From: Marvania coccoides
Taxonomy: Eukaryota > Chlorophyta > Trebouxiophyceae > Chlorellales > Chlorellaceae
Length of the DNA: 64,000 bases
Direction: 5' to 3'
Assembly: GCA_963854735.1 (NCBI GenBank)
Contig: OY978100.1
Coordinates: 1,612,001 to 1,676,000, forward strand
In this document: in pieces, positions 4,480 to 41,673 of the stretch
Position numbering within the stretch: position 1 is the stretch's first letter
Layout: the number at the start of each line of letters is the position of its first letter
The notes under the pieces: generated by a model
Database searches by the model: none
The model's input: only the letters and a program-made list of their open reading frames with translations
What the model was told of the DNA's origin: nothing
Translations under genes and position numbers: made by a program

Positions 4480-5430
4480 TTTTCATATCGGCGGGGCATC
4501 CGCCGGCCCAGTAAGGTCGCATTTAAAGTGCTCTCCAGGCGCTAACCGCTCGTCTTCATGACCGTCGATGATCACCACCGCACCCTCTCCCCGCTCCCTC
4601 TTCACGCGGTCGTTCATTGGCGCTGCAGCCCTGGTGGTGTTTGCATCCATCTGTGCCGCGTCCCCCCCCCCCCCCCCCCCTTCTGCCGCTGCCGCGCTGC
4701 CTGAGTGCGCGTTTCGGGGAAGGCGTTCAAAATGAGGGCATGGGCGGGGTTTTCTGGCCGCAGGATGCCGCGCAGCAGCAGGGTTTGTGGGTTTCGTAGC
4801 GCAGGTTAATAATGATTCGGGAGCCCACTAACAGAAAGGACGAAGATAGGCATTACTACTACTATTATTACGATTAATACATATCCAACAGCATGAAATA
4901 CATAACGAATGTTGTTTAAAACGATATGGCTTGCTTCCCTGGTGTGCCGATGGGCAGTGGCCGCGCTCGTCTCAGTGACGGTGCCAGCGTTTTGCCTGAC
5001 CAGCGAAGGCCGCAGGAAGAATTTCTTGTCTTCGGGCAGGGCAGGCACCGTCGAGGCAGCGGCGCGACTACTGCCTGGCGGGCAGTCCCCTCCTGTGTTT
5101 GGTTTCGTCGGTACACTCAATCTGCCGCACAGTCACCTCAAACTTGCCACTCTTGATATCCTGCGCAGCGAAGCCGCTCACACCGAGCTGGACTCCCTCG
5201 CAGCCGCGAATTTGAAGAGAGTCGTAGGTAACAACGCTGGACCTCCAGCGATGGCGATACCCTGTGAATGTGTTGTTTTCTGAATACAGCTTTCATCTTT
5301 GACCCGCATCTCTGCTGTCTACCTTGAGTATGCACTGGTAATGGCGGTCCCTGGAGGGGTGGAGGAATGGGTGCGCTGTGTCGGGATGGACCACACCGTT
5401 ACTATGAAATCGCCGACCTGCATGATACGT
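4480..5430 (-). pseudogene. Degenerate second copy of the DUF7918-like gene
   Basis: Minus-strand segments match the gene at 1002-2014 in order along its whole length: GDFIV near 5410, HPSR...YQCILKVD near 5350, a FAAQDIKSGKFEV segment near 5170, TVPALPEDKKFFLRPSL near 5020-5060, LRYET near 4795 and an NAFPETR segment near 4720. They are no longer one reading frame. A TGA interrupts near 5303, the frame shifts near 4785 between LRYET and the following LLLRGIL-type segment, and a 19-base poly-C tract sits at 4662-4680. Protein identity to the intact copy is low, so the duplication is old. A functional gene with unusual splicing cannot be fully excluded. Confidence 0.65.
4662..4680. repeat. Poly-C tract (19 C)
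   Basis: Uninterrupted run of cytosines inside the decayed DUF7918-like copy; likely to vary in length and to be prone to sequencing error. Confidence 0.9.
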
Positions 5431-5584: not shown

Positions 5585-5613
5585 AAGAATAAGCTCAAGT
5601 TGAGCTTATTCTT
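5585..5613. repeat. 29-bp perfect palindrome beside the transposon
   Basis: Arms AAGAATAAGCTCAA and its exact reverse complement flank one central G. It ends 6 bp before the left terminal repeat of the transposon and lies outside the element. Confidence 0.95.
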
Positions 5614-5619
5614 ATCATT

Positions 5620-5634
5620 CATCTCAGTTTTGTG
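5620..5634 (+). repeat. Left terminal inverted repeat
   Basis: CATCTCAGTTTTGTG, preceded by ATT. Exact reverse complement of 11854-11868. Confidence 0.9.
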
Positions 5635-5690
5635 AACGCGGTAGAAAACGGATTCAAGCAGCAGCGCGAAACGGCATGGCCCTTTTCATC

Positions 5691-5797
5691 AGCGCTAAAA
5701 ATGCACTAGCGCTAATTGGCGGATCTCAACAGCTGCGCTTATGAGCGCTGGCCTCCCGACACTAGCGCTGAAAAGCGCAGATCAACACTTGCGCAAG
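5691..5797 (+). repeat. Left subterminal repeat cluster
   Basis: GCGCT-led units at 5692, 5709, 5746 and 5765; the last (GCGCTGAAAAGCGC) is nearly identical to a unit at 11785 near the other end. A CTTGCGCAAG palindrome lies at 5788-5797. CACTA-type elements usually carry such subterminal arrays as transposition protein binding sites. Confidence 0.75.
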
Positions 5798-6002
5798 TTG
5801 CTGCAGCCGCTGCCTGGACGCTTGTCTGCAGGTACGCTGTAATGCGCTATTCTGCGGTTGTGCAATTTTGGGCCGTTACAAAAGTACGTTGATTTATGCT
5901 CATCTGCAGATTTCGCCCCCGCCCGCTAATTGCAGCTGGCGGTGCGCCTCGCCCTGGCCCCTCCGCGGGGTGCCCTCCTCCTCGCCATCTCCACCCTCCG
6001 CC

Positions 6003-7870
6003 TCACTCCATGGGCTGCGACCCCACCTCGACCTCCCACCGCGGCAGGATGATGGAGTTCTTGGGGTCGATGCGCTCCTCCACCTCCGTGATGCGCAGCT
6101 CGTAGTCGTCTTTGTTCACGTCGATTGTGGTTTCGCCCCTCAGCAGCAGTTCCACCTGCATTGATGGATGGAGAAAGGAGAGGAAGAAGATTAAGTAAGA
6201 CATTTATTTTATTTGAACGGCAAGTGCTTCTTGAATAAATTAGTTCATAGTTTTAACTTTTGAATTGGAGAACTCACCGCCAGCTCTACGAATGCGATGT
6301 GCGCCGCAGGGATGAAGTCGATTGGCTTGTGCTTGTCGGCTTTTTTGTACTTGAACTGGGAGGTGGTTTCGAGGAGCAGCCCACGAAAGGCCACCTGCTC
6401 GTAGGGATTTACGCCCATGGCGCGGTACGAAAAGTTGTCAGCCATGCGACTGCCCACGGCGGTGTCCAGGCTGGTGCATCCGACGGGGAAGAGGCGGCCG
6501 GTGCCGGTGCCGGTGCCGGCCACCGCAAAGTCTATGTAGTGCTCGGAGAGTTTCGCCTTGAGCGAGCCGCTGATGACGCTGCGCAGGCTGCGGTAAACAA
6601 GCAACACCTGCTTGACTTGAAGGAATTGACGAATTGAATTCATTAAAAGTTGCTGCAATACATCAAATGAAAAAATCAATTTGACGTACATCGCTTGCCA
6701 CTTCTTTCATCTGCTCCTGGGCGTTTCGTCGAGCCTCCTTGACGTTGTCGTAGCCCAGGTAGCAGGCTGCCATGTAGGCCGTGTGCGAGGTGGTGGGCCA
6801 ATAGCCCCTTGTCTTGGAGTTCCAGACCCACTTGACCGCCATTTCTGTGAAGTCTTTGCCCTACAAATCCAGGGGACAAAGATTGTTCATTACTTAAATG
6901 CAATATATAGTTTGATATTAATGCATATTTATTGTAAACGAAAGGAAACGCACCAGGGATCTTTTTTTCCCTTGCCGGCGGCCGGGAGGGGAGTTGCCCC
7001 AGGAGCTGATGGTGGACGCCGCAGAGGCCAGCGCCTCCAGGGACTTCTCATGGTTGTCAGTGAGCCTCTTCATCGTGGTTGTGGCGTCAGCCAGCATGTT
7101 CATCATGGCGGCTACGAAAGAAAAGAACAAAATAGTAGTTGACCTGCGACGGCGGGGTGTAATTAACGCATGAAAAGTAGCTTACGGAGGACGGCGAGAA
7201 GCTGGCGCATGTCGGAAGGACCAGCTGGGGGCGCGAGGTGGACGCGCTGGGTCGCAGCCGGCCTGCGGGCTTGGTGAGCCCCGCCGTTGCCGCCGTTCCG
7301 TGATGCTTGAAGAGCTGCTGCGTCGCTGGTGTTGTCGTGGTTGAGATCTTCATTCTCCTCGTCAGAAGACGCGTCAATGTGGAGGCTGGACTTGTTCGGG
7401 GAGGCGGCGGCCGGGCGCTGGGCTTGGAAGGCGGGGGTCTTGGCGCCTTGCTCGCCGGTGCGGGAGAACTTGTTGTTTTTGGTGGCAGCGAGCGCTCCTG
7501 GCCGCTTGAGGGCTTGCGAAGAAGGAGCAGCACCTCTAGGGGGAGGTAATGGGCATTCTTCTTCTTCGCTTAACCAGGTGGGCCCTGGCATTTCTTCTCC
7601 AGCCTGAATGAAGGGGAAAGAGAAGGAAGAAAGGGCGGGGTCGGCAGCGAGTATGAAACTGACAATGACAGAAGAAGGCCAGAAGGCAGAATATGTTGAA
7701 GTGAAAAGACATCTGCTCAGATGATCTTGACATGCACCCCAAAAATTGCAAACCAAAGGCAATTTGGCATTCCCGTTCCTCACCTGGAGGCCATAGAGAC
7801 CTTGCAAGAGTACGCGGGGGCCCACAATGTTGTTGTCCGAGCCCGGCCTGAGCCGATTCGTGCTGCTCAT
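6003..7870 (-). CDS. Transposon accessory protein (TnpA-like position), unknown family
   Basis: Six minus-strand exons (7784-7870, 7186-7603, 6954-7111, 6690-6860, 6278-6607, 6003-6155) join in frame to 438 residues; all introns are GT-AG. The N-terminal third is low complexity: acidic EEEE, Pro/Ala/Gln-rich, then a DASSDEENEDL acidic patch. The middle has a predicted helical MMNMLADATTTMKRL segment, and a folded half follows (KWVWNSKTRGYWPTT, LRSVISGSLKAKLSEHY, a Gly-Thr repeat, then a beta-rich end with RGETTIDVNKDDYEL). I recognise no family. Lying inside the element's ends and head-to-head with the transposase, it occupies the place of the second, end-binding protein of CACTA elements; that role is inference. 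Confidence 0.75.
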
Positions 7871-8223
7871 GGCTACAATGGACGGTAGGTGCTGTCGCAG
7901 GGAATCAGAGAAGGAAGACACGTTGAAACGTATTGAATAATATTTAGGTTTGACACGCTGAGGCGGGGACACGCAATCATCAGCGTGTCGAAAGAGGTGC
8001 AGACTGAGACACGTCGCGCGACGTGTCCCCTCTCGTGAACTTCGGAAGGATTCACGCGATTTTCGAAAAATCGCCGCGGCTCGTTCCTCCTTTGGGCAGC
8101 CGATTAAGCTACTTTTCGCGCTGAAATAAGGTTAAATAATCAATATAATTCTTGAAACAGCATTTTCATTTAGGATTAACGTGTTTTTTCCTCTGAATAA
8201 ATTTTAACATTCAAACATTTCTC
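7871..8223. promoter_or_regulatory. Central bidirectional promoter region of the transposon
   Basis: The 353 bp between the two divergent start codons. Contains the 20-bp palindrome at 8008-8027 and a further imperfect GCGATTTTCGAAAAATCGC dyad near 8056-8074, then AT-rich sequence before the transposase ATG. Promoter role is inferred from position. Confidence 0.6.
8008..8027. repeat. 20-bp perfect palindrome
   Basis: GACACGTCGCGCGACGTGTC equals its own reverse complement. Lies in the shared promoter region of the two transposon genes; a candidate site for a dimeric DNA-binding protein. Confidence 0.95.
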
Positions 8224-11200
8224 ATGGGGAGCATATGGAAAACCCCTGAATACCCTCATCACTGCTGCGGCTGTGGAAAGTATTGGCGCAACATCGAAAG
8301 CCACATCAAGCACCCATCCAACGAGAAGTGCTTCTGGGCTACGGTCGAGGCCCCGCCTACCGCTCCGCTCCGCAAGCGCCCTCGTGCAGCTGCGCCGCCG
8401 GATGAAATGGACTGGGGGGATGGCAACCAGGACAATGGCGACGACGGCGGGCTGCCGCCAGGCGGGGATGGGATGGTTCCGGCCATCGATGCCGCCAACA
8501 TCACCGCCGCCGCTGCCTCGCTGGTGGCAGCATCACAGCGCGTACGCAGCACCGCACCGACCGGCCCTGCCGCAGTGGACCAAACTGAAGCTGCGGAGCT
8601 TGACGAAATAGTCAACGGGCTGGGGAGAATGGGCTTGGATGATGAGGTGGAAGATAGCGGCAAGAGCGGGTACGGCATCAAGTTCACCGAAGCTGAGCAC
8701 GTTGCGGTCAGCATCATGCACAAGCTGTCGCTGATGGAGGGGACGCGGTTGTTCAACATGCTGCACAACCACGGGCTGTGCCGCTGGAAGAATGTGCCGC
8801 AGTTTGACACCTATCGTGCAGCCCCAAGGGTCCGGGAGCTGGGGCAGCCGTGGGTGGATGCTACCATCGCCGAAGTCAACGGCGTGGTCATCAAGGCCAG
8901 CTTGGTGGGCGACTTTGACCTCGTTCTGCGAGAGATAGCCCGCAAGGGCGGGATGCTCGCAGAGTCGGATTGCGGCGCACTCAACAGCGACGGGGAGCAG
9001 CTTTTCGGGCGCGTTCACATGGGCACTCGGGTGCAGCAGCGGTTCGTAAGTAAACGGCATTCATTTGATCTAAATATAATGCTTTTCTCTTGTTCACTTG
9101 AGCATAATAAAAAAAGTCTCTTGTTCACTTGATAATTTTTTTCTTTATTCATTTTTTTTCGCAGGGAGCTTACAGAACGAGCCCTTTCCGCCGTTCCGAT
9201 GAATTAAACATCATCCCCCTCGGTGTATACTACGACAAAACTGACGTGGAGCGCTCCGATCGTTCTATGTGCCCCTTGAACATAATAGCGATGGCGGTGG
9301 ACCGCAGCATCCTTTTCACGCCGCGCGGGACAACGCGCATCGCTGAAATCCCTGTGTTGGACCGCAAAGCTCTTGGAATAACACCGGGGGAGTGCAGGAT
9401 GCTGCAGCATTGGGTGGCACAGACAACGCTGGAGTTGGCCTTGAAGCGTTTCAAAGAGTTGAGCTGCAAGTAAGTGATTTTCTCTGGAAGTTAATAGAAA
9501 ATCTTATTATGAAAGATAACACTAATTTACTAATTTATTTATCCTACACAGGGGGCTCGAGGTGGCTGACCCCCAAGGCAACCCGATATGGACGTTCCCC
9601 ACCCCCGTTGCCTTCATTGGCGACCTCCAGGCGCTCAGCCAAGCCTTTGCGGTTGGCGGCAACTATAAATGTGACATGCCTGATGTTTCCACGTACGTGC
9701 CGAAGGAGGAGCTGGACAACATCTTCGACGATTTTGGCGAGCGCCGCGAAGAAGACATGTTGGCAGTGTTCGCTCGGGCCGCCATGGCAGCCGTGGCCAC
9801 TGGGCCCCACTCTGCTGACATGCGTGTAGCGGCAGAAAACGAGTTGAAGCTGTACTCGCTGACACCCCTCCCCCTTTTCAACCCTGAGAAAGACATCAAA
9901 GGAGTTGTCAAGGTGCTGGCAGGCTCTCCCATGGTGGCCAAGCCAGCGCTGATGGGTTTCTTTGCGGTGAACTGCTACGAGCTGGCCATGCCCGACCGTT
10001 TGCATACCGTGTGGAAAGGCTTCGTCACCTACATGCTGGGGGTGGAGCCTGGCGGCATTCTGTATTGCCTCGCTGGTGGCAGCATGCCGCTTCTCAGAAA
10101 GGCAAGTTACCCAATTCGCCAATTAATCTCCGGGTTCTCAATGGCTTAAATTTCGGGTTTTCTTTACATTTGTAGATAAACAGATACATTTTCAACCTCC
10201 CCACTTACCCTGACCTTGTTTTGCCCCGCAACGGCTGGCAAACCTCGCGTTGTGAAGAAGCTGGGCTGTTTGCGAAGAAAATAACCGCCACAGAGAGCAT
10301 AAACCTGGCGCTGGTGATCGGCCCTGCTCTGCTGCTGGACTCCAAGCTCATGCCGCTGCTCCGCTGTATTGCCGGCAAGTCAAAATGATTAAAAAAAGTT
10401 TTGAAAACGATATATTATAACGAACAAACGGTAACAACATATATATTTTTTTATTTGTAGCGCTGCTGAACTGGCACGCCGTGGTGCGCCGTGAGATCCA
10501 CACTGAGGAAACCATCGCCCAAGTGCACTCCCTCCGCATCGAGCTGCAGCAGACCGTTCTTCGTGAGCTGAGCACAGAGAATGAGAACTTGAGGGACAGC
10601 TGGACCACCCCCAAGAGCTGGAGCATCCCCAAGATGTGGTGCCTCCGCAAATTTGAAGGGGCCATCAAGGTGGTGGGCGCCTCCGCCATCACCGACACCG
10701 GCTTCCAGGAAGCGCTGCACAAGGCCGGCAAGCGCGCTGCCATCCACACCAATAACCGCAAAAACGACGCGATGCCGCAGATGTCGCAAGCCGAGGCGCG
10801 CGAGTGCGCTTGCCGGCGGCTGTTGGACGCCGATGAAGGCGACGCAGAGCGGGAGACGCGCTGCAGCTTGCAGCGGCTCGCGGTCGCCATCAAGGGGATA
10901 GTTCTACCTGCGCGCTTCGCCCGCGTGTGCTTAGCCGAGTTGGACAAGGGTCACCTGGGTGACCAGAGCACCGCCGACCAAGTGGCGCTCGAGCTGCTCA
11001 CCACCGCCCCCCTGCTGCAGCAGCTGCTGTCCGATGCCAACCAGGTCGCTGAGGACGAAGGTCTCCCACGTCCCAATGCGGACGTCCAGATCTTTGGCAC
11101 CGCTGGCATCCCCTTCTACGCCCACCCAGGCGCGCCGGTGAAGGGAGTCAAGCTCATGGCCAAGGTCTGCGCGGGCTCCAGGGGGTACGGCTCCGTGGCC

Positions 11201-11533
11201 ATGCGCGGCGTTGGCTGGACTCCTCAGCTGCAGATGGAGTGGTACGCTGACGTTGTGGCCTTTGTGGGGCTCAACTTTGGTGGGCACCGCAAAACGATGG
11301 CCATGGTGCGGTGGTACGAGGTGGACACCGAGGCGGACGAGAACGCTGCCATTCTGGGGATGACGCAGCTCAAGGTGGAGCAGCAGACGCGGCTGCTCAG
11401 CGACGGTCGCTCCCACACTGTCGACTACACCGAGCTGGTGCCGTTGCACGACATTTTGCGGCCAGTGTACATTCAGCCGCACCCCACGAAGCAGGGAACC
11501 TTCTTCTACAACCCCTACATCAAGGGAGTATAG
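8224..11533 (+). CDS. Plavaka-like (CACTA/KDZ-related) transposase
   Basis: Five exons (8224-9045, 9165-9469, 9552-10101, 10176-10374, 10461-11533) give 982 residues. Introns 3 and 4 use GCAAGT donors: nearby GT sites break the frame. N-terminus: Cys/His zinc-knuckle-like motif (C14, C17, H27, H30, C36). Then the Plavaka order: NIIPLGVYYDKT (D298, candidate catalytic Asp), PLNIIAMAVDRS, a DPQGNPI...GDLQA segment (D400), PDRLHTVWKG (D524-H527, matching PDLLHQLHKG of fungal proteins), a PTYPDLVLPRNGW segment and WCLRKFEGAIKVVGA...KAGKRAAIHTNNRK. The end, VPLHDILRP...FFYNPYIKGV, matches the family C-terminus. Such enzymes cut and paste the element at its terminal repeats. No stop or frameshift; catalytic residues assigned from memory of the family. 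Confidence 0.85.
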
Positions 11534-11611
11534 CCGCTGGGACCCTGGCAGGGGTCAGAGGGCCTAGGAGCGACAGCGGGCGGGGTTTGACGGTGGTGCA
11601 GGGCGGCGCTG

Positions 11612-11822
11612 GCGCTGAAAATCGCTGTTTTGCACCCATTTTTAACATGAAAAATAGTGCGAGCGTCGAATGGCGCTAATAAACGCGGCGAGTGCCAGCG
11701 TTTGTTGGCACCAGCGCTAAATATCGCAATCAAATTTTCATGAGCGCTTTTTAACGCTGTGCTGGGCAGCGCCAGACATCGCTTGCGCTGAAAAGCGATC
11801 AATAACACTGCGCTTATTAACG
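11612..11822 (+). repeat. Right subterminal repeat array
   Basis: Six units of one 14-bp pattern, GCGCT plus six mostly A/T bases plus CGC, start at 11612, 11673, 11714, 11744, 11785 and 11810 (the last two slightly diverged at the 3' base). Each unit is a small dyad with GCG/CGC arms. Units are 25-61 bp apart. The sequence between the transposase stop and the right end is otherwise non-coding. Confidence 0.8.
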
Positions 11823-11853
11823 TTTTTTTACACCAGCGCCCAACAGCAGAGTC

Positions 11854-11868
11854 CACAAAACTGAGATG
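11854..11868 (-). repeat. Right terminal inverted repeat
   Basis: CACAAAACTGAGATG, the exact reverse complement of 5620-5634, followed by ATT. Confidence 0.9.
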
Positions 11869-11920
11869 ATTGGGCTCTCCAAGACACTTTGTTTGTTTTT
11901 ACAATATTTTAACTGATGGA

Positions 11921-12313
11921 ATGGAGAAGGAAGTTCGTGGGGCCTGGGAGGCTTTCGCTCTAGCCGTTGCCGACGCTTTGGAGCAGCAGGGTGCACCAAA
12001 GTGCGATGAATGATTTACAATTTTTCAAAATCGGCTTCATTCTATTTCGTGGGTCCCTGAGGTTTGAAAATTTATATGTTGCAGGGATCAGAGCCCCGAA
12101 ATCGTAGCGAAGCTCCACGCAGCAAGGAAAAATCTGCACGCCGCCTGTTTGAGAGCCTCGCTGCAGCTGGTGAGCCCTCAAACCCCTTCCTTTTCTCCCT
12201 CGCATGCACTCCTTTAAACCTCCAATCTGTCTACAAATGTGCAGGAATACGCCAAGCAGTATCTGCATCTCACGCAAGACCAGGAGCAGCAGAAGGAGGA
12301 GCCAGCTGCTTAG
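11921..12313 (+). CDS. Small helical protein, 77 residues, unknown
   Basis: Three exons (11921-12000, 12085-12169, 12245-12313) join in frame between an ATG and a TAG. The introns have GTGCGA and GTGAGC donors and GCAG acceptors. The product is almost wholly alpha-helical and charged: AWEAFALAVADALEQQ, then SPEIVAKLHAARKNLHAACLRASLQLEYAKQYL, then a Gln/Glu tail. The heptad-like pattern suggests a coiled-coil subunit of a larger complex. No family recognised. It begins 52 bp outside the right end of the transposon and ends 36 bp before the ZNF511-like start codon. Exon chaining is consistent but the first donor is weak. Confidence 0.5.
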
Positions 12314-12349: not shown

Positions 12350-13209
12350 ATGGGCTCGATCGTCGAGGGCTGGGCCATCCCGGTCTACGTCGGCCACCGC
12401 CGCCGCCTGCGCCCCGACGACGCGGTGTTCGAAGGAGACGAAGCCGCGAGGAGCGCCGCTGCCGCCACCACAGCAACAGCGCGCCACGCCCCCGCGCTGC
12501 CTCTGGACGCCGCACCACGGCTGCCGGACGAGTGCAGTGTGTGCCATGCCGCGTTCCCCACCGCTCACCTGCTGGATTTGCACTTAGCAGAGGTCCACGA
12601 TTCTTTCTTTGCGGCACAAGCTGCCCGGCGGCTTCCTGTGTACGCCTGCCTGGTGGAGTCGTGCAGGCACAAGTTCCGGGGGGTGCAGGAGCGGAAGCAG
12701 CACCTCATAGACCACCACAAGTTTCCCAAAGGCGCCAATTTGGACAGAATCCACGTCAGGTATCGGGATTTTATTTCAATTATGTATTCGCATTATATAT
12801 ATTCGGAAATGTTTTGTTCATGTTCATGTTTATAAGACTCTAAAAGCTGGTTGATTTGTGGGCCTCTTGCTGTTGCAGGCGGACGAAAGCACAAATTCGG
12901 CCGCTGCCAGAATTGAGAAAGGGAAAGGGTCGGGCCCAGCGGCAAGGAGGAGACGCAAGTGGCAGGAACGGGGGCGGTGGTGGCAGTACTGAAGAGAAGG
13001 AGAAAGAGGCGGCACAGGCGCCCGAAGCCATGCAAGTGGATGCTGAGCTGGCTGAAGGAATGTCGCGGCTGCACATGGCCTCGGAGCTCTCCGCGGTACC
13101 TAGAGTGATTGCGTTTGGCCACAGAAGAGGGGCCAGCGTAATGCCAGGGCTGGGCAGAGGTGGAAGGGGAAGGAAGGGGTGGGGCGAAGCAAACGCCATG
13201 AAAGAATAA
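12350..13209 (+). CDS. C2H2 zinc finger protein, ZNF511-like
   Basis: Exons 12350-12759 and 12879-13209 encode 246 residues. Two C2H2 fingers sit about residues 62-125: CSVCHAAFPTAHLLDLHLAEVH, then the ZNF511 hallmark linker DSFFAAQAARRLPVYACLVESC, and an H-x5-H pair ending HLIDHHKFPKG. The C-terminus has a Lys/Arg/Gly-rich stretch, an acidic segment and a PRVIAFGHRRG motif like the conserved FGRG-type end of ZNF511 proteins. ZNF511 is a conserved nuclear zinc finger protein of poorly defined role in transcription or RNA metabolism. Sequence features clear; function inferred from family only. Confidence 0.8.
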
Positions 13210-40881: not shown

Positions 40882-41566
40882 ATGGCTTTTGGGTGCCAGT
40901 CACTTTTCAAACCAAAAATCGAACCAATGAACAGCGTTTGTGGCCTTTTTTCCAGAAATACCACCGGATTTGCCGGCCCACGAGGGGCTTCCTCTCCAAG
41001 GAGGATTCTTCCTGCCTCCAGGAGTCGCGTCCTTCAACGCATCGAGTGCAAGAGTTTGGCGTTAGGCGACGTCGCGAAGCGTTCTGGAGCACTCATCTGC
41101 AGGTGCGTGCTCCAGGTTAAATCAAAAAAATTCTCACACGCTAAACTGCACAAAACCCAAACCAAACCCTGTTGATTTTTGCTCTGGTTCATTGATCAAA
41201 CCCTCCAAAACAATTTCAACCGCGCTTGTCCGCAGAATGCGCCACCTCTCCATCTCCCTTTTCACGAAGATGACCGAGCTCCCGCCCGAGGGCTCCACGT
41301 TGATGCCCAGGGAAGAGCAGTGCAATGTGCAGTCCCTCTGCAGAACTGCCCCGGCCCATGTCTGGGAAGAAAAATGCTCCCAGTGCGGGGGCGCGGGCCT
41401 CATCTCCATGAAGGGCTCTCGCGGCAGGAGGACGCTGGCCACCTGCCTCATCTGCGACGGCGTGGGTATCGTTCGCCACGTCTCTACAGAGCCTGAGTTT
41501 ACAGCGGAGGTGCTAACCATCGCAAGGCCGCCGCCAGTGATTAAAGCCGCTACCAAGCGGCTCTGA
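40882..41566 (+). CDS. DnaJ-type zinc finger protein, probably plastid
   Basis: Exons 40882-41102 and 41236-41566 give 183 residues (or 168 from a second ATG at 40927). The first about 60 residues are Arg/Ser-rich and could be a transit peptide. A pair of CxxCxGxG-like motifs (CSQCGGAGLI...CLICDGVGIV) forms one DnaJ-type zinc site, as in small plastid proteins of the BSD2/PSA2 type that act as redox or assembly helpers; only two of the four repeats are present. The last about 30 codons and stop are tandemly duplicated in the 3' flank. Confidence 0.75.
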
Positions 41567-41673
41567 TGATAAATGAATCATAGAGCCTGAGCTTGCAGCC
41601 GAGGTGCTGACCATTGCAAGGCTCCGCCAGTGCCTAAAGCCGCCCCCAAGCGGCTCTGGTGATCAACGAATCA
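41488..41673 (+). repeat. Tandem duplication across a stop codon
   Basis: Unit 1 (41488-41580) holds the last 26 codons, stop and 16 bp beyond of the DnaJ-zinc-finger gene. Unit 2 (41582-41673) repeats it with about 85% identity. In unit 2 the stop TGA has become TGG and small indels break the frame. Confidence 0.9.

Follow-up and report, generated by a model that had tools for sequence, protein, structure and literature searches.

Positions 5620-11868 of a 64,000-nucleotide stretch of genomic DNA, hereafter the window, very probably hold a green-algal cut-and-paste DNA transposon that is intact and was recently mobile. The element, here named F1, is 6249 bp long and contains a transposase-like gene on the plus strand and a partner gene on the minus strand. 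From the rest of the genome we recovered a near-identical copy of F1 in unrelated surroundings, and also a second family, F2, built to the same plan; both findings corroborate the description of F1 in the first-pass annotation as a complete, apparently autonomous two-gene element. In its mode of action F1 resembles a CMCT element, and it may be called Plavaka-like. We do not assign it to Plavaka: its termini and duplications agree with those of that group wholly or nearly so, but its motifs do not. New are a divergent lineage and a conserved partner gene for which our searches returned no relatives.

Ends, copies and target sites

F1 is bounded by terminal inverted repeats (TIRs) of 15 bp, CATCTCAGTTTTGTG at 5620-5634 and CACAAAACTGAGATG at 11854-11868, which match in inverted orientation at 15 of 15 bases. 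A 3-bp target-site duplication, ATT, lies directly outside them at 5617-5619 and 11869-11871; both the perfect inverted ends and the duplication noted in the first-pass annotation were therefore found as described. The outermost bases are CATCT..AGATG in F1 as well as in F2. Inside the TIRs lie a left subterminal region with CAGCGC/AGCGCT-type repeats (5635-5889) and a right one with GCGCT-type repeats (11599-11853). CAGCGC is the commonest 6-mer in these two 255-bp end regions of F1, where it occurs 10 times, and 1 of 500 shuffled sequences was as extreme. The corresponding numbers for F2 were 19 (6-mers), 51 (7-mers) and 3 (8-mers), each out of 500.

To the left of the element, and outside the ATT, a 29-bp near-perfect palindrome, AAGAATAAGCTCAA...TTGAGCTTATTCTT, occupies positions 5585-5613 of the window and ends 6 bp before F1; it may mark a target prone to form hairpins. 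When the flanks of the insertion were joined and searched for in the genome as an empty site, they matched their own place only, together with a self-match of the palindrome there.

The genome comprises 22.46 Mb in 15 contigs (named C1, C2 and so on). Searches of it for further copies, as the first-pass annotation had proposed, yielded a second full copy of F1, derivatives and the F2 family. The second full copy (G000:C2:1269116-1275364) differs from that in the window at 1 of 6249 bp, at element position 320 and outside the coding exons. The flanking sequences of the two copies are unrelated, and the boundaries of this second one fall exactly at the TIRs. A 1699-bp derivative on C11 has an internal deletion but retains both ends, with GTA on either side. 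More truncated or degraded pieces of F1, about 79-98% identical, are present on C1, C2, C3, C6 and C11, so that F1 has a past besides its recent copies. The copy numbers from these searches are lower bounds. The exact 15-mer end occurs 8 times in the genome, with 4 of these occurrences contributed by the two full copies, compared to about 0.04 expected for equal base frequencies; allowing up to 2 mismatches, there are 61 sites, versus 22 for the 15-mer read backwards as a control. Exact 15-mers at C2:2249205 and C3:759527 adjoin interiors unrelated to F1, and a second end was not found within 1.5 kb of either.

The F2 family was detected at four places through its transposase, which is 38-48% identical to that of F1 exon by exon. 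One F2 copy, C4:871994-879380, was read whole; it is 7387 bp long, has a 13-bp TIR (CATCTGGGTTTTG) and is flanked by GGA on either side. For the other three, the comparison covered 3264 bp of the right side, where three of the four copies do not differ and a 3-bp gap sets the fourth apart, and 322-372 bp of the left side, where one 3-bp length variant and one substitution were seen. The copies on C13 and C2 are flanked by AAC and TTT duplications, and a 416-bp, internally deleted derivative on C2 by a GTC duplication. The layout of F1 and F2 is alike. Their transposases are 41% identical, with a nonsynonymous divergence (dN) of 0.61 and a synonymous divergence (dS) of 1.36, which is near saturation, over 922 codons.

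Exact 3-bp duplications (ATT, GTA, GGA, AAC, TTT and GTC) were found at six of the eight elements with both ends defined, and none of the six extends beyond 3 bp. The probability of this outcome by chance is about 4e-10, assuming equal base frequencies and independent insertions. Pieces that lack one or both ends are not part of the count of eight, nor are two derivatives: a possible one of 1094 bp at C1:263334, whose right end carries 4 mismatches and which has TTG on either side, and a short one at C11:779946-780446, in which the left end is degraded. The combination that identifies cut-and-paste transposition, TIRs and target-site duplications at unrelated sites, is present; unrelated flanks were compared for the two F1 copies.

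Some observations speak against an intact, recently mobile transposon. Two of the eight elements have no 3-bp duplication: the second full-length copy of F1, where a GCC was found 2 bp off on the left, and the F2 copy at C4:1068853, whose first base is also altered. The subterminal repeats claimed for F1 in the first-pass annotation hold for 6-mers but not for longer words, 70 and 175 of 500 shuffles being as extreme for 7-mers and 8-mers, respectively. The missing duplication at the second full-length copy could also be taken to favour a two-gene block of the host that was duplicated in segments and carries inverted repeats by chance. We consider this explanation extremely improbable. It is refuted by copy boundaries that fall at the TIRs, with unrelated sequence beyond them, and the duplications at six elements and the internally deleted derivatives with both ends retained argue against it as well. 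A complete transposon that was mobile recently and is now silent is a less remote alternative, which we regard as unlikely. The degraded partial copies are in line with it, whereas the single difference between the two F1 copies, the identity of three F2 copies over 3264 bp and the open frames are not. The recent activity suggested in the first-pass annotation is thus supported, as far as recent mobility is concerned, by the near-identity of two F1 copies with unrelated flanks, and an intact, recently mobile element is the reading that we adopt.

Coding capacity of the element

The transposase-like gene (plus strand, 8224-11533) encodes 982 amino acids once five exons are joined, from an ATG at 8224 to a stop codon at 11531-11533, which confirms the intact transposase of that length claimed previously. 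Exon 1 (8224-9045) encodes a zinc-finger-like C-x2-C...H...C pattern at residues 14-36 that is conserved in F2. The presumed catalytic residues are distributed over exon 2 (9165-9469; Asp298 at 9234-9236), exon 3 (9552-10101; Asp400 at 9622-9624) and exon 5 (10461-11533; Glu709 at 10709-10711), the last of which also encodes a conserved C-terminal region; exon 4 (10176-10374) lies between the latter two. Splice sites were picked by eye. Introns 3 and 4 of the window copy, which follow exons 3 and 4, require GC-AG splicing, and only one of 16 donor combinations tried at these two introns keeps the frame open. All four introns interrupt F1 and F2 at identical residues and in identical phases, and the F2 equivalents of introns 3 and 4 have GT donors, which supports the five-exon model of F1. 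Asp298, Asp400 and Glu709 are invariant between F1 and F2. Their invariance and spacing, together with the motifs of Plavaka transposases, suggest that they form a catalytic triad.

The partner gene runs divergently from the transposase gene on the minus strand, from 7870 down to 6003, and encodes 438 amino acids in six exons. Exon 1 (7784-7870) begins with the ATG at 7870, and exon 2 (7186-7603) is less conserved in F2. Exons 3 (6954-7111), 4 (6690-6860), 5 (6278-6607) and 6 (6003-6155, with the stop codon at its low end) have homologues in F2. The 353 bp between the two start codons (7871-8223) presumably contain the promoter, judging from their position. The partner gene is as intact as had been claimed, with an open frame and a homologue in F2; a comparison of the F1 and F2 proteins gives 24% identity over 281 residues (E 1.9e-22), and the models have equal intron phases. 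The acceptor of F2 exon 2 was selected to preserve the frame, and for that reason the agreement of the partner introns carries less weight than that of the introns in the transposase gene. Against Pfam, the F1 partner matched only a HEAT profile below the cut-off (E 0.11-0.14), and the F2 partner gave no match. Since it is conserved between F1 and F2, the partner is probably a long-kept component of these elements rather than a gene captured by one copy.

The copies demonstrate past mobility, and the two proteins most likely divide the labour as follows. The 982-residue protein would act as a DDE transposase through Asp298, Asp400 and Glu709. Its N-terminal zinc finger would grip the TIRs, while the partner protein would help at the subterminal GCGCT-type repeats. 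The transposase would then excise the element and join it to a 3-bp staggered cut.

Affinity to Plavaka and other superfamilies

Plavaka transposons are best known from fungi. The Pfam profile for this group, PF18759, has a curated cut-off of 26.3 bits and is the sole profile matched by the transposases of both families. It aligns to residues 288-535 of the F1 protein (profile positions 109-318; 18.2 bits, E 0.0016) and to residues 314-440 of the F2 protein (profile positions 152-272; 17.2 bits, E 0.0032). As F2 residues 314-440 align to F1 residues 327-453, the register of the two matches agrees within a few positions. Up to E 1, the only other match of the F1 transposase was to a TAPR1-like family, below the cut-off (E 0.34). 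The F2 transposase matched nothing else up to E 10, and the reversed F1 and F2 proteins, used as a control, matched no family up to E 10. Excerpts of Kojima 2025 (PMC12730594) give 2-3 bp duplications and 5'-CATCA..TGATG-3' termini for PlavakaB, and termini that are mostly 5'-CA..TG-3' for CMCT elements. The 3-bp duplications found here at six of eight elements agree with this description, and the termini nearly do: CATCT..AGATG shares 4 of 5 end bases with the PlavakaB ends, including the CATC start and the GATG end.

Other results stand in the way of a firm assignment to Plavaka. Both PF18759 scores are under the cut-off. The same profile run on the genome did not pick the F1 or F2 genes, probably because their exons were scored apart; it gave one weak match elsewhere, and one of the 14 control genomes, that of Thermotoga maritima, matched weakly as well. 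No C-x2-C or H-x3/4-H motif is present in the F1 and F2 transposases beyond the N-terminal finger (outside the first 30 residues), although C(2)C and H(3-4)H are reported, in the excerpts of PMC12730594, to be common to CMCT lineages. Protein searches with the full F1 transposase (E 0.001), an alignment of F1 and F2 (E 0.1) and an alignment of exon 5 (E 1) found no homologue when the best 8000 candidates by shared words were scored, so that the putative catalytic residues rest on two sequences. A profile search of PDB gave nothing up to E 1, and none of the 26 and 21 pattern matches in IMG/VR or the 118 in GTDB contigs was confirmed. NCBIfam, searched with the F1 transposase, gave no match. 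These database negatives say little about other algae, because only best candidates were scored and because the content of IMG/VR and GTDB is viral and prokaryotic. The weak genomic match mentioned above (G000:C1:2574632-2574799; 15.8 bits, below the cut-off) lies in a 71-residue frame; it may mark another relative or be due to chance, one control genome matching weakly too.

A Plavaka/CACTA-like affinity, as put forward in the first-pass annotation, is therefore plausible: the PF18759 match in both families, the near-fitting termini and the 3-bp duplications favour it, whereas the scores, the missing motifs and termini that are not CACTA do not. F1 may genuinely belong to the fungal-type Plavaka superfamily, specifically to PlavakaB, and have reached green algae by vertical or horizontal spread, and elements described as EnSpm-Plavaka in excerpts on Auxenochlorella would be in keeping with such a spread, as are the shared profile, termini and duplications. 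We regard this membership as possible though doubtful, given the sub-threshold scores, the lack of C(2)C and H(3-4)H and the difference at terminal base 5 (CATCT versus CATCA). F1 also differs from Plavaka in carrying a partner gene without a Pfam match above the cut-off. Equally tentatively, F1 and F2 could constitute a separate algal lineage beside or inside CMCT, without the zinc ligands thought to be common to CACTA, Transib/RAG1 and Plavaka, and with a dedicated, co-evolving second protein of an undescribed family.

CACTA/EnSpm elements transpose by cut and paste, produce 2-3 bp duplications, carry subterminal repeats and often encode a second, DNA-binding protein. F1 likewise shows cut-and-paste mobility, 3-bp duplications and a second gene, but the termini of F1 and F2 begin with CATCT instead of CACTA or CAC, and no CACTA transposase profile was among their Pfam matches; CACTA/EnSpm proper was rejected on its termini. 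PIF/Harbinger elements typically have two genes and 3-bp duplications, with TTA/TAA as the target. The first two properties are shared with F1, but neither TTA nor TAA occurs among the six duplications, and no Harbinger-type transposase or Myb/SANT domain was matched in Pfam, which makes a PIF/Harbinger-type element very unlikely. Pfam also contains a profile for Kyakuja-Dileera-Zisupton (KDZ) elements, and this was not among the Pfam matches of F1 and F2; of the profile comparison suggested in the first-pass annotation, only the Plavaka part thus returned a match, below the cut-off. The CA..TG termini do occur in Kyakuja, according to the excerpts of PMC12730594. The same excerpts report 8-bp duplications for Zisupton, and 7-bp duplications without TIRs for Kyakuja, as opposed to the 3-bp duplications and 13-15-bp TIRs found here. 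We therefore consider a KDZ element highly improbable, and a Plavaka-like element of the CMCT type remains our preferred description.

The host might further be Auxenochlorella or a close relative, and F1 could then belong to the family of EnSpm-Plavaka transposons already reported from that alga. This is unlikely in our view, as the G+C content is 54.7% here (17 scattered 3-kb loci) and roughly 63% in Auxenochlorella. Genome size is consistent with it, since excerpts of PMC12633428 and PMC12636532 give a haploid genome of 21.9-23.0 Mb and 12 chromosomes, compared to 22.46 Mb in 15 contigs, and apparently active elements of this type occur in both. Those excerpts describe potentially active EnSpm-Plavaka transposons in this green alga, among families with many haplotype-polymorphic insertions. 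As described there, they resemble F1 in being potentially active cut-and-paste elements of a green alga. Extending the range of Plavaka to algae, as the first-pass annotation proposed, is not new, because the Auxenochlorella elements are already in print (PMC12633428, PMC12636532). Repeats flanked by a Plavaka transposase are also reported from the protist Amoebidium, in an excerpt of PMC11244446.

Genomic context of the insertion

A light-harvesting protein encoded by the genome matches chlorophyll a/b-binding chains in PDB, the top matches being multi-domain LHCI chains (9vfj). Among the ordinary genes of the window itself are those for an SBP-domain protein and an SRP54-type protein. The SBP domain is not known outside the green lineage, and together with the chlorophyll a/b-binding proteins the SBP-domain gene supports a green-algal host. 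A candidate host-gene ATG is located at 11921, and the open reading frame (ORF) at 12350-12835 downstream of it shows a C2H2-like zinc-finger pattern. As this ATG is only 53 bp past the right end of F1, the insertion may have hit the promoter or the 5' leader of the gene concerned. Elsewhere in the window, the minus-strand ORFs 1268-2065 and 4806-5120 share the peptide STVPxLPExKKFFLxPSL and may be tandem copies that have diverged; DNA repeats of at least 40 bp were not found between them, and the first had no Pfam match. A tandem repeat of two 93-bp units with 84% matches is present at 41488-41673.

Significance

For a poorly characterised branch of green-algal transposons, F1 and F2 supply two families whose ends are defined and whose frames are open, together with internally deleted derivatives and a partner gene conserved between them. 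If the loss of zinc ligands is true, C(2)C and H(3-4)H would not be essential for a CMCT-type transposase, which would bear on how the catalytic core of RAG1, Transib and CACTA is built. The near-identical copies make the element a candidate for a working insertion tool in algae.

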